A DNA stretch of 64,000 nucleotides from Mesoplasma coleopterae. GTDB lineage: Bacteria; Bacillota_I; Bacilli_A; Mycoplasmatales; Mycoplasmataceae. Under the pieces are notes generated by a model. The model did no database searches, was not told where the DNA came from, and saw nothing but the letters and a program-made list of their open reading frames with translations. Every line of letters begins with the position of its first letter. Position 1 is the stretch's first letter. The stretch covers positions 62,001 through 126,000 of the forward strand of contig NZ_CP024968.1 in the NCBI RefSeq assembly GCF_002804245.1, written 5' to 3'. Both the position numbers and the translations under genes were made by a program. Of the stretch, positions 29,832 to 36,485 are shown one piece after another.

Positions 29832-30506
29832 ATGCTGTTTTGAGTAACTAACATAATTGCAGTATTGCTAATATTTTCTTTATTTTTTATAGGTATGTTT
29901 ATTGATAAAATACATGCTAAAAAATTTACTGTTAAAAATATAACGTTATTGGGTTTAATAGTCGCACTAAGTATAATACTAACTAATGTAATTGGCTATT
30001 CAATGGTTTTTGGATTTAGGATAATGATAGGTAATTTTATGATTTTCTTTGCTGGAATGGTTTTTGGCCCACTAGGCGGAATAATAGCAGGTTTTTGCTC
30101 TGATTTAGTTGGATCAATGATTAATATAACAGGAACATTTCATTTTGGATTTATGTTATCAAAAATATTTATAGGTTTTTGTGGAGCTTTGGTGTTTATA
30201 TTTAAAAAGAATAATTTTTGATTTATTAAAATGATTTTCTTTTTAATTTTAAGTTTAGCAATTACTAGTTTTCTAATAACTCCGATATGTTTAGTTGCTA
30301 GTGGATTAGGAAGTTTAGCAGCAATTAATTATATTAAAAAAGTTATAATTTTGCCTATTGAGTTACTAATTTTTATTCCGAGTATATATGCTTGTTTGAA
30401 AATATCTAGTTTATTATTGAAAAGCGAAATACAACAGCCTTCTAGACCATGATTTTTAAGGCATGGTGAATTGAAATTTAAAATATCAAAAAGCGCGAAA
30501 AAATAA
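29832..30506 (+). CDS. folT: ECF transporter substrate-binding (S) component, probably folate (FolT-like)
   Basis: 224-residue integral membrane protein with about six helices. Hallmarks of the ECF S family are LGLIVALSIILT, FGFRIMIGNFMIFFAGMVFGPLGGIIAGFCSDLVGS. It would work with the shared EcfA/A'/T module encoded elsewhere. Folate specificity is inferred from its position 15 bp after folC, a recurrent arrangement. SD AAGGAGAG precedes the ATG at 29832. Read through two TGA codons as Trp. Confidence 0.8.
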
Positions 30507-30518
30507 TTCGTGCTTTTT
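30488..30518 (+). terminator. Terminator of the uvrB-uvrA-folC-folT group
   Basis: Twelve-bp stem aaaaagcgcgaa with ttcgtgcttttt (one G-U); the folT stop codon lies in the loop. Confidence 0.85.
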
Positions 30519-30595
30519 ATTTTATTGATCATACTAATATTTTTTTAACTAACAATTATAGTAAAATTATAATAATAAAATAAGGAGTTAAAATA

Positions 30596-31528
30596 ATGAG
30601 TAAATTAACAATAAAAGAATTAGTTGCTAAATTTAATTTTGAAATTATTTCAGGTGCAAGCCACATGAATAGTGAGATTACAGTTTATGGACTGAATCGT
30701 GCAGGTTTAGAATTGACAGGATATTTTAATGAAAAAGAAGATAAGAAACATAAGCGTGCAATTTTAATGTCTTCTAAAGAAAATAATTATATGTCACAGT
30801 TTTCAGACAATGAAGCTTGCGATAAATACAAAAACTTAATTAAAATGGGTTCACCAGTTATAATAATTACACAAAAATTTACAGATGAAAGATTAACAAA
30901 AGTAGCTAAGGAATTAGATTTTCCACTGCTAAAAATTAACTATCCGTCAACAAGTGAACTAACTCAAAAAATATTAGACATTTATGATTTATATTTTGCT
31001 CCAACAGTTGAAGTTCACTCTACATTAATGAATATATTTGGTAAAGGTGTATTAATCTTTGGGCAATCAGGTATTGGTAAATCTGAAGTTTCATTGGAAT
31101 TAATGAAAAAGAACCACTTATTTGTTGGGGATGACAGAATTGTTATTTCAAATAGAAATAGTGAATTATTTGGTAAATCACATGCACTTTTACAAAATTT
31201 AATTGAAGTTAGAGGTATTGGTATTATCGATATTTCTAAAGTTCAAGGTCAACAATTAATAATGCCTGAGACAAGAATACATATGGGAATTGAATTATTT
31301 AAATTCCAAGAAGGTGGAATTGATAATACTGATAGGTTAGGAAATGAATGAACTCAAAAAGATTTCTTAGGAATAAAAATACCATACTTAAGAGTCCCAG
31401 TTAGTGCTGGACGTAACCTAGCAAATATTATTGAGGCAGCAGTTGGTCAACTAAAAGTTAACGAAAGTTCTGATGCTCAAGATATTATAGAATTATTAGC
31501 AAAGAGAAATAGTGAATTAACAGAATAG
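30596..31528 (+). CDS. hprK: HPr kinase/phosphorylase
   Basis: Phosphorylates Ser46 of HPr to control sugar PTS activity. The 310 residues have an N-terminal domain and a kinase core with P-loop GQSGIGKSE (about residue 155), DDRIVI, and EVRGIGIIDIS. One TGA (Trp) at 31352. A TATAAT at 30568-30573 and SD AAGGAG precede the ATG. It heads the hprK-lgt-trxB-lgt-whiA cluster, an order widespread in Firmicutes. Confidence 0.95.
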
Positions 31529-31535
31529 AGGAATT

Positions 31536-33146
31536 ATGTGGGGAACATACGAAAATTATTATAGATGACTTGATTTAAATTATAAATCTCCAGGAGACAT
31601 GCGTCTTCTTTTTGGTCTTGTTCCTGCATATCCTGTATTTATGTTTTTAGGAATTTGCTTAGTAATTTTAGTAACTGTAATTCAAATGAATAAAAGAAAA
31701 ATCCCTTTAAGAGAATTAGAAATAGGAATTTTAATAGTAGTGCCTATAGGAATTATAGGTGGTACTTTTTTTGGGAAGGTGTTTTTGCCAAATTATCAGA
31801 GTTGATCAAATTTTTATAAAGTATTTTTTTTCTGACAACCAGGTATGTCATTTTTTGGAGCTCTTTTATTAGGTTCAGCTGCAGGATTTGGATGATTTTA
31901 CAAGAGAAGCAAAGTAACTCAAATTTCAATGTGAGTTTATTTAGATTTAATTTTGGTAAATGTCTTATTGGGTCATGCATTAGGTAGATGAGGTAACTTG
32001 TATAATCAAGAAATTCTTGGTAATCCAATAAATTACGATAGCATTTCTTGAATGCCAAATTTTATTAAGCAAAGATTATTTTATTTACCAAATATATCAA
32101 ATATTAGAAATATAAATGATATAGACGAAAAATTACCAGATGGTTGATGACTGATGATATCAAGTAACGTTAATTGAGGACAAAATTGAGTTGTTTATGA
32201 AATGGTAGAAGGAAATTTAATTCCAACATCAAGAACTTTAACAGATATTATGCAAGAAGAAATAGTATTCAGACAACCAATTTTCTTAATTGAGGGGATT
32301 GGAAATATAATATTATGAATTGTAATAACTTTTGGTGTGAGAAACATTAATAGGATAAGTAATTTTAAAAATAATCCTTGAACATTATCACCAGAAGGAT
32401 TCCCATGTATATTCAATCCAAAATATAAATCAATCTCAGAAAATAAATTAAAGGATTGATACACATTAGCGCCAATAAAATATAAACGTATTAAAAAAGT
32501 TAGTGAAGAAGGCAATGAATACGAAATTACTATGAGTTTAAAAAGCGTCTGAAATAAAGCATATTATTGAACTGAACCAGATTATGAATCTAACAAGAAA
32601 TTATTTTCTCAAATTGAAGAGTGAAAAAATGACTTGTACAATGCTACTTTAAAATATCAAAATGATAAAAAACAATTTAATATAAAATTAGAAAAAATGA
32701 AAATTGAGTTTAATAAAAAATATAAATTCACAAAACGTAATTCACAAGAAGAATTAAAAATGCAGTATAAAAATAACGTCACTTTGGAAAAACAAAAAAT
32801 CAAGGAAAAACAAATTGAGTTTAAAAATAAATTTTCATTTAGTGAAAGATATTTGGGTGTTAATCCATTTGGAAAAGAACTTGAAAAGGCAAACAACCCT
32901 AATGGCTTTATCGTCACAAGATGTGGAGTTTCTGCTGGTTCATATATATTAGGTTATGGTATACTTAGAACAATATTAGAAACTCAAAGACAAGCAACAG
33001 AATACATGATTCCAAATCATGTAGTTGCTAACTTCTTAGTCTTAAGTTTAATAATTATTATAGGAATGTTTATAATTGTTATGACACAATTTGTTATTCC
33101 ATATAAATGAAGGGAAATTGGATGGTTATATGAAAAAACATACTAA
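31536..33146 (+). CDS. Divergent prolipoprotein diacylglyceryl transferase paralogue with large insertion
   Basis: 536-residue membrane protein of the Lgt family, far longer than the usual ~270-300. The signature GHALGRWGNLYNQE is kept near residue 149. However, the HGG motif (E. coli His103) aligns to SFFGAL, and the hPsqLYE motif (E. coli Tyr235) reads PIFLIEG. Both residues have been reported important for activity. A charged, partly coiled-coil cytosolic insert (about residues 260-460) precedes the last helices. It is read through many TGA codons. Possibly a non-catalytic or altered-specificity relative; the standard-looking Lgt is at 34093. It overlaps trxB by 17 bp. Confidence 0.8.
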
Positions 33147-34065
33147 CGAAAATTTAAAAGACATTTTAATTATTGGTGGTGGCCCAGCTGGTTTAACTGC
33201 TGGGGTTTATGCTGCTAGAGCTGGAATGAAAACTATTATTTTAGAAAAAGAAGCACCCGGTGGAAAAATGGTTAAAACAGATACGATTGAAAACTATCCT
33301 GGCTTTGATAGTATTAAAGGACCAGATTTAGCACTAAAAATGTATATGCAAGTAATTAATCTTGGAGCTGAATTTGTTTATGATGAAGTTATTAAAATAG
33401 AAAAAAATGATGAAACATTTACAGTTACTACTAGAAATGGACAAATAATTGAATCTTTAAGTGTGATAGTTGCAACTGGTACATTAGAGAATAAATTAGG
33501 AATACCTGGGGAAGATCAACTTTATGGAAAAGGTGTCAGTTATTGTGCTGTTTGTGATGGAGCCTTTCATAAAGGGAACCCAGTAGCAATTGTTGGTGGA
33601 GGATATTCAGCAGTTGAAGAAGGAATTTATTTAAGTAAATTTGTAAGTAAATTATATGTTGTTGTAAGAAAAGATCACTTTAGAGTAGACCCAGTTACTT
33701 TATCTAAATTAGAACAACTTGAAAATGTTGAATTTTTAATGAATTCTGTTGTTAAAAAAGTTAACGGAACTGATAAAGTAGAATCAGTTGAGATTGAAAA
33801 TGTTATTTCAAAAGAAGTTAAAACTGTTCCTGTAACTGGCTTATTCCCTTATATTGGAGCAACTCCAGTCACTCAATTTTTAGAAAATCTTAATTTAGAT
33901 AAAAGTGATGGTTATTTAACTGGAGATGCTAAATTAAAATCTAATGTTAAAGGTTTATTCATAGCTGGTGATGTTAGGGATGTTCCTTTGAGACAAATAG
34001 CTATCGCAGCTGGTGATGGAGCTTTAGCTGGTCAAATGGCTGTTAACTATGTACAAGAATTATAA
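33130..34065 (+). CDS. trxB: Thioredoxin-disulfide reductase
   Basis: NADPH/FAD enzyme that reduces thioredoxin. The 311 residues contain [17 protein letters not shown], the redox pair CAVC in [12 protein letters not shown], the NADP fold [10 protein letters not shown] and the FAD motif [21 protein letters not shown]. The ATG at 33130 is favoured over an in-frame ATG at 33091, which lies well inside lgt. The gene starts before the upstream stop, so translation is probably coupled. Confidence 0.95.
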
Positions 34066-34092
34066 TGAATAAATAAGAAAGGCGAGTTGAAT

Positions 34093-35511
34093 ATGAATAT
34101 TAAAGAGTTTAAATTTAATAAAATTTCTTTTGATTTTAAAAGAGATAAACTAAAATGAATTTCAATTGGTTTATGAGCATCATTATTCATTGTTGTAATA
34201 GTTTTATTTTCTGTTTTTTGAGCGACAAAAAATGTAATTTGAACTCAGGAAGATAGTTTTTCAAATTCTACAACCGGTCTTGCGGAAGACCAAATAAGTT
34301 ATGGTGGCATAGCAAAATCATATGGTGGCATAGCGATCTACCCAATGGCAATGACAATGGGTATGTTAGTTGCAATTTTATTTAGTTTGTATAAGTTTTG
34401 GAAGAAAGGACTTGATGTAATTCATCTTTCTATAGGTATAGCTATATGTATTCCTATATCTTTAATGGGTGCAAGTTTCTTTGGTAAATTAAATGCGCAA
34501 TCTCCCGGAGTCAATGCTGGAGGCGTTGGATTTTGAGGGCTTTTTGCATTTTGAGAGCCAGGCATGGCAATTCACGGAGGAGTATATGGAGGATTGTTAG
34601 CAGGAATTATCCTTTTCTACTTCGTTGGCAGAAAAACAAAAACGTCTATGTTAGTTTATGCAGATGCGATTGTGCCTAATATACTTTTAGGTCAAGCTAT
34701 AGGTAGATGAGGTAATTTCTTTAATCATGAAGTTATGGGGGCACCAGTAGCTGTTACATATCATGGTGGAGGATGAAATTTAGGGTCCAACGGAGTTGAT
34801 TGAACTAATGTTCATGATTACTATGGTTGACTGCCAAAATGAATAGGCAGAAATTTAATGGTTAGGGCGGATTCTTCTCAAACCATTAACGGCATTACAT
34901 TTAACAAAGGTGATTTAGTTCAATTATCGCCAATTTTCCTTTATGAGTCATTAAGTTTATTAGCTGCATGATTAATAATAACTTTCATTATTCCTAATAT
35001 AACAAAATGAATAAGCAAAAAACCTTGAAAAGTTGAAACTGGAAAATATAACTATAAATTATCATTTTCAATAAAACAATGATTTATGCCTTGAATTAAA
35101 TCTACAGATGAAGTTCAATCAGGAAGAGATATATGAAATTTAGCGTACTTTAGAAATATTGATGAAAAAGCAAAAGAACAATATTTAATAAGTTTGGAAT
35201 TGGATAGAAAAAAATATTTAAAACCAAAAGAGATTAATAAAGCTAATAAATTGAATGATTATATTTCAACCAAAGCTGGAGTTGAGTGCTTTGCATATTT
35301 CTTTGCATGAAATTTTGTAAGATTTTTCTTAGAATTAAGTAGACCAGATGATCACTTATTTGTTATGTATGATAAGCCATTATCATTATCATTAATTCTT
35401 ATATCATCTATAATAGGTTTAATTGGAATGATTGCTTCGCAGTATTGATTACCAAGTTTAATTAGGAAAAATGGCTATTTATATGAGAAAGAATATTTCT
35501 CACTAAATTAA
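34093..35511 (+). CDS. lgt: Prolipoprotein diacylglyceryl transferase
   Basis: Transfers diacylglycerol from phosphatidylglycerol to the lipobox Cys of prolipoproteins (one is at 58648). The 472-residue product is longer than typical Lgt through an N-terminal extension and loops, but keeps GMAIHGGVYGG (HGG motif), LGQAIGRWGNFFNHE, SPIFLYES (hPsqLYE region) and NFVRFFLELSRPDD. It needs many TGA codons as Trp. SD AAAGGCGAG precedes ATG 34093. A diverged paralogue lies upstream of trxB. Confidence 0.92.
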
Positions 35512-35531: not shown

Positions 35532-36485
35532 ATGTCATTTGCATTAACAGTCAAAGAAGAAGTAATTTCACACACTTTTGATGATGAACTAGGAAAAGCC
35601 TTTTTAGCAGGATTTATTAAGTACAATGGTGACTTAATTTGAAGTTCAGGTAATGAAAAATTAAAGTTAACATCAATCAGTAATAAAATTGCTAGAAGTA
35701 TATTTGGTCTTTGTAAAAAAATGTTTGATGGTCATATTGAAATTTCAGTTTCTCAAACACAAACCTTAAAACAAAATAAAACATTTCAAATAACCTTAAT
35801 AGGTAAAATTTCCGAGTTCTTAAAATCGTTAAATATTTGAGATGAAAACGGAATAAAGGTTATTGAGTTTAAACCTTTAAAACAACAAAAGGATAAAGAA
35901 GAATTAACTAAATTAAAACGTGCTTATATGGCTGGTGTATTTGTTGCAGTAGGTTCTGTTAATTCACCAGAAACAACTAATTATCATTTAGAATTACAAT
36001 TTAAAGATGAAGAGTCAGCAGTTTACGTTATTGCATTAATGAACAAGTATGGTTTTGATTTTAAAATTTTAAAAAGAAATGAGAAGTTATTTATTTGTTA
36101 TATTAAGAAAGCTATAATGGTTTCTGACTTCTTAAAATTTATTGATGCGTATCAAGCTGTCATGAATTTTGAAAATGAAAGAATTATGAGAGATGTTTCA
36201 AACAATGTAAATAGAGTTAATAATATTGATATTTCTAATGAAAAGAAAACCCTTTCTGCTGGTTTAAAGCAAATTGATCAAATAAGTAAAATTCAAGCTA
36301 ATTTAGCAACAAAAAGGCTTTCTGAAAAAGCTGCTTATCTTTGTGATCTTAGAATTCAAAATCCAAATGCGTCTTATGCTGAGCTAACAGAATTGATGAA
36401 CGAGAACGGTTATGAAATAACAAAATCTGGAGTAAGCAATTTATTTAAGATAATTGAAAAATTAAGTTTAGAATTTAAAATTTAA
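35532..36485 (+). CDS. whiA: WhiA-like DNA-binding protein
   Basis: 317 residues: an N-terminal LAGLIDADG-like fold (TVKEEVISHTFDDELGKAFLAGFIK; LKRAYMAGVFVAVGSVNSPE) and a C-terminal helix-turn-helix domain (ANLATKRLSEKAAYLCDLR, NPNASYAELTELM, GVSNLFKII). WhiA proteins bind DNA and affect division in other Gram-positives; recent work in mollicutes links them to ribosomal protein gene control. SD AAGGGAGTG precedes the ATG. Confidence 0.92.

Follow-up and report, generated by a model that had tools for sequence, protein, structure and literature searches.

The closest described enzyme to the proteins treated here is the diacylglyceryl transferase Lgt of Escherichia coli, in which Y235F, Y235L and Y235S lose complementation and Y235T is partly active, while H103A, H103N, H103Q, H103R and H103Y fail to complement and Y201F is functional (Mao et al. 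2016, PMC4728403). Tyr235 of this enzyme touches the C3 group of diacylglycerol (PMC4728403). Two Lgts per genome were reported for about 1,300 genomes, and a 2026 survey listed natural changes of H103 to Y, W or F in the Lgts of certain species, as well as a Bacteroides Lgt with Y235I (PMC13251419). Lgts of Firmicutes failed to complement E. coli (PMC13251419). Both paired Lgts and natural changes at 103 and 235 singly are already known. Here, a pair of Lgt genes is described from the genome of Mesoplasma coleopterae, within a window of 64,000 nucleotides (contig NZ_CP024968.1, positions 62,001 to 126,000, forward strand). The genome encodes exactly two PF01790 proteins, hereafter UP and DN, which flank the thioredoxin reductase gene trxB and have diverged from each other at active-site positions.

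31536..33146, + strand: lgt-UP, the upstream Lgt copy, 536 aa, with Phe103, Tyr235 and Ile201 (PF01790 at 97.8 bits, residue mapping, trees, gene order)
34087..35511, + strand: lgt-DN, the downstream Lgt copy, 474 aa, with His103 and Trp-Asn at 235-236 (PF01790 at 98.0 bits)

The reading frames of the window were translated with code 4, and residues were numbered by alignment to the Lgt of E. coli K-12 (L073). GRWGN is retained in both copies. UP reads SFFGAL where E. coli has SFHGGL, placing Phe at His103, and PIFLIEG in place of PxxLYE, placing Ile at 201. An earlier note on this DNA had described these motifs, two Lgt paralogues on either side of trxB and the absence of His103 from the upstream copy, all of which agree with the E. 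coli alignment, the code 4 translation and the PF01790 matches. Its assignment of a Tyr235 loss to the same copy was mistaken. The tyrosine of PxxLYE is Tyr201 and not Tyr235, so the second residue thought to be lost is one that E. coli can dispense with, as Y201F is functional. The catalytic Tyr235 lies four residues N-terminal of Arg239, within GY235GAFR239IIVE243FFR246, and is kept by UP (GYGILR), whereas DN carries Trp at this site (AWNFVR), in the stretch AWNFVRFFLELSR; the true loss of Tyr235 therefore belongs to DN, in which 103 is His and 201 is Tyr. It is thus DN that differs at 235 from the residue usual in mollicutes. UP retains Y26, R143, N146, E151, G154, R239 and R246, and DN retains His103, Y26, R143, N146, E151, R239 and E243. 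Arg73 of other Lgts is Ser or Thr in both copies and in the Lgt of family f9, with a Lys one helical turn later (Lys77; GASFFGK vs GARxxYV, at 31764-31778 of the window for UP residues 77-81 and 34474-34488 for DN residues 130-134), and it is possible that the positive charge was relocated by one helical turn.

The same pair was found throughout the family. Genes were read from all 60 genomes covered for the family, and each has two Lgt genes, a UP and a DN; what look like third matches are C-terminal fragments of genes already counted, and in G144 the UP reading frame as called (L063) begins late. When 46 UP sequences (outside genus g5) were compared with 60 DN sequences over 241 alignable columns at a purity of at least 85%, only three columns split the two clades, namely 103 (Phe vs His), 198 (Leu vs Ile) and 235 (Tyr vs Trp). 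All three are among the active-site cavity or hydrogen-bond residues of the E. coli enzyme, as listed from Mao 2016 (PMC4728403) and from Singh 2019 as reviewed in PMC8689077. For three of three sites in the cavity the hypergeometric P is 4e-4, a value that serves as a guide only, the 18-residue cavity list having been drawn up after the pattern was seen. Position 103 of UP is Phe in 45 of the 46 genomes outside g5 and Tyr in the remaining one, with G105 often altered, and the g5 copy is without the Phe103 change. In DN, His103 is present in 60/60 and Trp235 is followed by Asn236 in every readable row. The reciprocal differences at 103 and 235 are seen in 46/46 genomes outside g5, with Tyr235 of UP in 42 of these. 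A chance origin of the pattern is rejected because it holds in 60/60 family genomes, and the sequences strongly indicate that the active-site divergence proposed in the earlier note for two copies is family-wide. F147 had also appeared to separate the clades and was dropped when the UP rows grew from 23 to 46. In genome G186 of genus g5, the DN gene (L147) has an apparent frameshift between the FLYE and WN motifs, with the WN motif kept, due either to a sequencing error or to a broken copy.

Both proteins pass the PF01790 gathering score of 24.9 bits (UP 97.8, DN 98.0), and the Lgt signature GRxGN...E151...G154 together with R239 and R246 is present in every readable UP and DN sequence, except for R246K in the DN of genus g69. 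AlphaFold2 models have a mean predicted local distance difference test score (pLDDT) of 79.7 for UP and 79.4 for DN, and both have the seven-transmembrane (7-TM) Lgt fold. E. coli Lgt (5azb) is the top PDB match of each model, with probability 1.00, TM-score by target 0.48 and E = 2.8e-3 for UP, and probability 1.00, TM-score by target 0.61 and E = 2.1e-4 for DN. Diacylglyceryl transfer from phosphatidylglycerol to the lipobox cysteine is the reaction expected of an Lgt.

The requirement for His103 and Tyr235 together, as in E. coli, fails for UP (Phe103, Tyr235) and for DN (His103, Trp235). Since some sole Lgts of other mollicutes fail it too, this pair of residues is not family-defining. Position 103 of sole mollicute Lgts is Gln, Glu, Leu, Ile, Met or His, and absence of His103 is common among them. 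Those of f3/g11 (L129, L130, L159, L161) carry Gln103, Ile201 and Thr235 and so vary naturally at both supposed catalytic residues; the group includes the 580,076-bp genome G012, whose only Lgt gene has Gln103/Ile201/Thr235. As sole mollicute Lgts and the surveyed natural Lgts carry such changes, a substitution at 103, at 235 or at both is, on sequence comparison, not proof of a dead enzyme. Tyr235 had seemed invariant in Lgts with Arg73 (48/48), which was a sampling bias towards the best-scoring matches; Thr235 (f3/g11) and Trp235 (f8) were found later.

Some further observations concern these other mollicutes. A single Lgt with Leu103, Trp235 and Gly236 was detected in the f8 genome G015 (L128, 77% complete), and both f8 genomes (77-88% complete) have two Lsp matches each. 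In G011 and G017 (f11) an Lgt is present and no match to Lsp (PF01252) was found; the Lgt of G011 (L013) is without His103, and its residues at N149 and E151 are Asp and Asn, respectively. The PF01790 search gave zero matches in eight mollicute genomes of 93-97% completeness (G055 and G069 of f3/g28; G078, G090, G096, G099, G128 and G137 of f3/g32), in which Lgt was either lost or has diverged past recognition.

The pair appears to be old. In trees built with the trait columns removed (values are pairs of supports), DN forms a single clade (100/99) that takes in the second Lgt copy of family f5, and UP outside g5 likewise forms a single clade (100/99), while UP and the g5 copy join in one clade with weak support (83/58). 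An approximately unbiased (AU) test rejects an f1 clade of UP and DN that excludes the f5 DN (p = 0.005). Most likely, the pair goes back to an old duplication and its members were long retained together. Families f9 and f5 have the order hprK-lgt-trxB-whiA with one Lgt at that place; UP therefore occupies the ancestral hprK-lgt-trxB position, with DN most likely the derived copy. In most of the genera sampled, DN is flanked by trxB and whiA; in g3 it follows UP immediately, and in g5 and f5 it is unlinked. No genome was seen with a DN-type copy (Trp235-Asn236) as its only Lgt. Tyr235 copies of the Lys77 lineage, by contrast, do stand alone in f9, and this suggests that DN is the specialised copy of the pair.

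Selection on the two clades, proposed in the earlier note as a check, was likewise compared. Within the genus, the ratio of non-synonymous to synonymous substitution rates (dN/dS) is 0.19 for UP and 0.14 for DN, with 0.04-0.07 for neighbouring genes, rough values as dS is about 1. In UP the ratio is similar in the insert described below and in the core (0.17-0.19), and the C-terminal core of DN is most constrained (0.05). Over 23 shared genomes the tree length is 9.24 for UP and 8.95 for DN. Both copies are under purifying selection at similar rates, with dN/dS slightly higher in UP, and neither looks like a decaying gene; a decaying UP pseudogene is ruled out by dN/dS, tree length and retention in 60/60.

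The earlier note had also described an insert of about 200 residues as a mark of the upstream copy. The insert exists, at 189 residues, in the loop between TM5 and TM6, but it is not specific to UP: DN has one of 86 residues at the same site.

32352..32918, + strand: insert of UP, residues 273-461, TM5-TM6 loop (alignment, AlphaFold2 model)
35008..35265, + strand: insert of DN, residues 308-393, same site as in UP (alignment, model)

WNxAYY and NNP-type motifs are common to both. In the AlphaFold2 model, the UP insert forms a long hairpin of two helices (350-398 and 401-432), with a pLDDT of about 90 over most of its length. Single Lgts of f9 and Lgts of f5 carry an insert at the same site as well, which rules it out as a peculiarity of UP, and by sequence it predates the UP/DN duplication.

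Lsp is single-copy in the family members that were searched, with none in one 85%-complete genome and an extra sub-threshold piece in another; hence only the Lgt step of the pathway is doubled. Scanning the window for lipoboxes yielded a single clear lipoprotein (58648, + strand), and such a scan cannot reveal two substrate classes. Membranes of M. mycoides contain phosphatidylglycerol, cardiolipin and galactosyl-diacylglycerol (PMC6609329), and with these lipids present, different donor lipids are a concrete possibility.

Taking these results together, we find best supported, at about an even chance, the reading that UP and DN are two active Lgts from an old duplication with divided substrates, in which UP is the housekeeping enzyme at the ancestral position and DN is derived. 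We infer the catalytic activity of both proteins as well as the identities of their substrates. UP would work without His103, as other mollicute Lgts do. In DN, the pocket around the lipid head group would have been rebuilt by Trp235-Asn236 for a different set of substrates, which might be another donor lipid (e.g. phosphatidylglycerol vs cardiolipin) or another class of pre-prolipoproteins. Both would feed the single Lsp, and the cell probably needs both.

Several points weigh against this reading. E. coli Lgt is dead with H103 and with most Y235 mutations (PMC4728403). UP (91.8 bits) and DN (93.8 bits) both miss the 118.9-bit cut-off of the Lgt equivalog TIGR00544 (NCBIfam), for which the sole Lgt of G012 scores 335.8 bits; the best matching stretch of UP and of DN ends at the insert in each case. 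Outside g5, UP carries E243D in 21 of 46 genomes (the whole of genus g2, with 20 genomes, and one of g69) and Y235I in 4 of the 20 g2 genomes, which might reflect a decaying catalytic network. Asp243 throughout g2 and Ile235 in part of it are the strongest sign against full UP activity in that genus.

These changes, with the Phe or Tyr at 103 of UP, its often changed G105 and the His103 of DN in 60/60, would also suit a reading in the direction of the earlier note, with UP as a dead or weak pseudoenzyme that acts as partner, chaperone or regulator of a working DN. On the tree, His103 was lost along the stretch where DN came to lie beside UP, but both the substitution and the rearrangement count as single events, which makes their match statistically untestable. 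The alignment of many mollicute Lgts, suggested in that note as a check, gives no pseudoenzyme argument, as the residues lost in UP, and sometimes Tyr235 too, are missing from sole Lgts of relatives. UP has kept R143, N146, E151, R239 and R246, its rate of evolution does not exceed that of DN, and DN is itself without Tyr235, whose replacement kills E. coli Lgt (PMC4728403). With purifying selection and similar tree lengths in both copies, a pseudoenzyme is not supported, and we regard it as unlikely. The reciprocal differences at 103 and 235 in 46/46 genomes outside g5 could instead reflect an obligate heteromer. The other chain, or the contact itself, would then make up for the group that each site lacks, and the cytoplasmic inserts might hold the two together. 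The genes are adjacent in one block in sampled genera outside g5, and the inserts have their motifs in common, that of UP being predicted as a helical hairpin. In E. coli, however, a single 7-TM Lgt chain is functional and has both residues in the same cavity (PMC4728403); in g5 and f5, DN lies far from the other copy, which has no Phe103 change; and some sole Lgts elsewhere are single chains that lack both residues. A heteromer therefore seems quite improbable to us, and the wider idea that lipidation in the Mesoplasma/mycoides group depends on an obligate Lgt pair, each member minus a residue essential in E. coli and heteromeric or strictly interdependent, is equally doubtful.

Even less probable is that DN performs another lipid or acyl transfer on the Lgt fold and UP is the only Lgt. 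Trp235-Asn236 is fixed at the residue that touches the diacylglycerol C3 group in E. coli, and DN never occurs alone, yet its other catalytic residues are kept, including His103, Y26, R143, N146, E151, R239 and E243. Plain redundancy or gene dosage would explain two copies most simply and is least likely of all, as 60/60 genomes, although reduced, have retained both across a deep split, and it is in the active site that the divergence is concentrated.

Around the two lgt genes, the locus forms a conserved block, hprK-lgtUP-trxB-lgtDN-whiA, with the following further features.

30488-30518: terminator-like site just 5' of hprK (consensus match only)
30545-30573: promoter-like site just 5' of hprK (consensus match only)
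30596..31528, + strand: hprK, HPr(Ser) kinase/phosphatase, first gene of the block (TIGR00679, 298.9 bits)
33130..34065, + strand: trxB, thioredoxin reductase (TIGR01292, 348.5 bits, above cut-off)
35532..36485, + strand: whiA, last gene of the block (TIGR00647, 207.2 bits, gene order)

All five genes are on the + strand, separated by gaps of at most about 20 bases or overlapping by 17 bases, the latter where the ATG of trxB overlaps the 3' end of lgt-UP. The same five-gene block is found in the named relative Mesoplasma grammopterae, with the identical overlap (L104). The start of lgt-DN is likely the ATG at 34093, after AAGAAAGGCGAG, in preference to 34087. In the genus of M. coleopterae, lgt-DN has an N-terminal extension (34093-34300 of the window) with an extra predicted TM helix at residues 21-45, which is absent from most other genera. 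In JCVI-syn3A, trx is locus 0819 and is classed essential. Loci 0818 and 0820 are putatively its two lgt genes.

The hosts of UP and DN are among the organisms with the smallest genomes, and it is from members of this group that near-minimal and synthetic cells derive (Mesoplasma florum; M. mycoides, the source of JCVI-syn3A). A literature search, mostly outside subscription papers, gave no report of a family-wide Lgt pair, of reciprocal active-site divergence or of the insert, and no paper found accounts for the need implied by a pair in every family member. At the two residues of Lgt that are most disputed, UP and DN offer natural variants with which the roles of His103 and Tyr235 can be tested directly. 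The existence of sole Lgts with neither residue suggests that the mechanism based on E. coli is not general.

Compared with known systems, UP and DN have the fold and nearly all active-site residues in common with E. coli Lgt (PDB 5AZB/5AZC), from which UP differs by the lack of His103, DN by the lack of Tyr235, and both by the lack of Arg73, the presence of Lys77 and a TM5-TM6 insert that E. coli does not have. Paired Lgts of Streptomyces coelicolor and Mycobacterium smegmatis (cited in PMC13251419) likewise represent two homologues per genome. The second Lgt of M. smegmatis, MSMEG_5408, has Y26H and N146C and a presumed low activity (PMC13251419), whereas Y26 and N146 are intact in UP and DN. 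Lgt-like proteins of Deinococci, Myxococcales and others without R143/R239 (PMC13251419) have altered catalytic sets, and UP and DN retain both arginines. Among code-4 hosts, the single Lgt of f9 has the order hprK-lgt-trxB-whiA, Lys77 and the insert like UP and DN, but is one gene with His103/Tyr235; that of G012 belongs to the same gene family and differs in being one gene only, with Gln103/Ile201/Thr235. Unlike the S. coelicolor and M. smegmatis pairs, UP and DN are universal in a family with reduced genomes, and each is without a different residue that is essential in E. coli.
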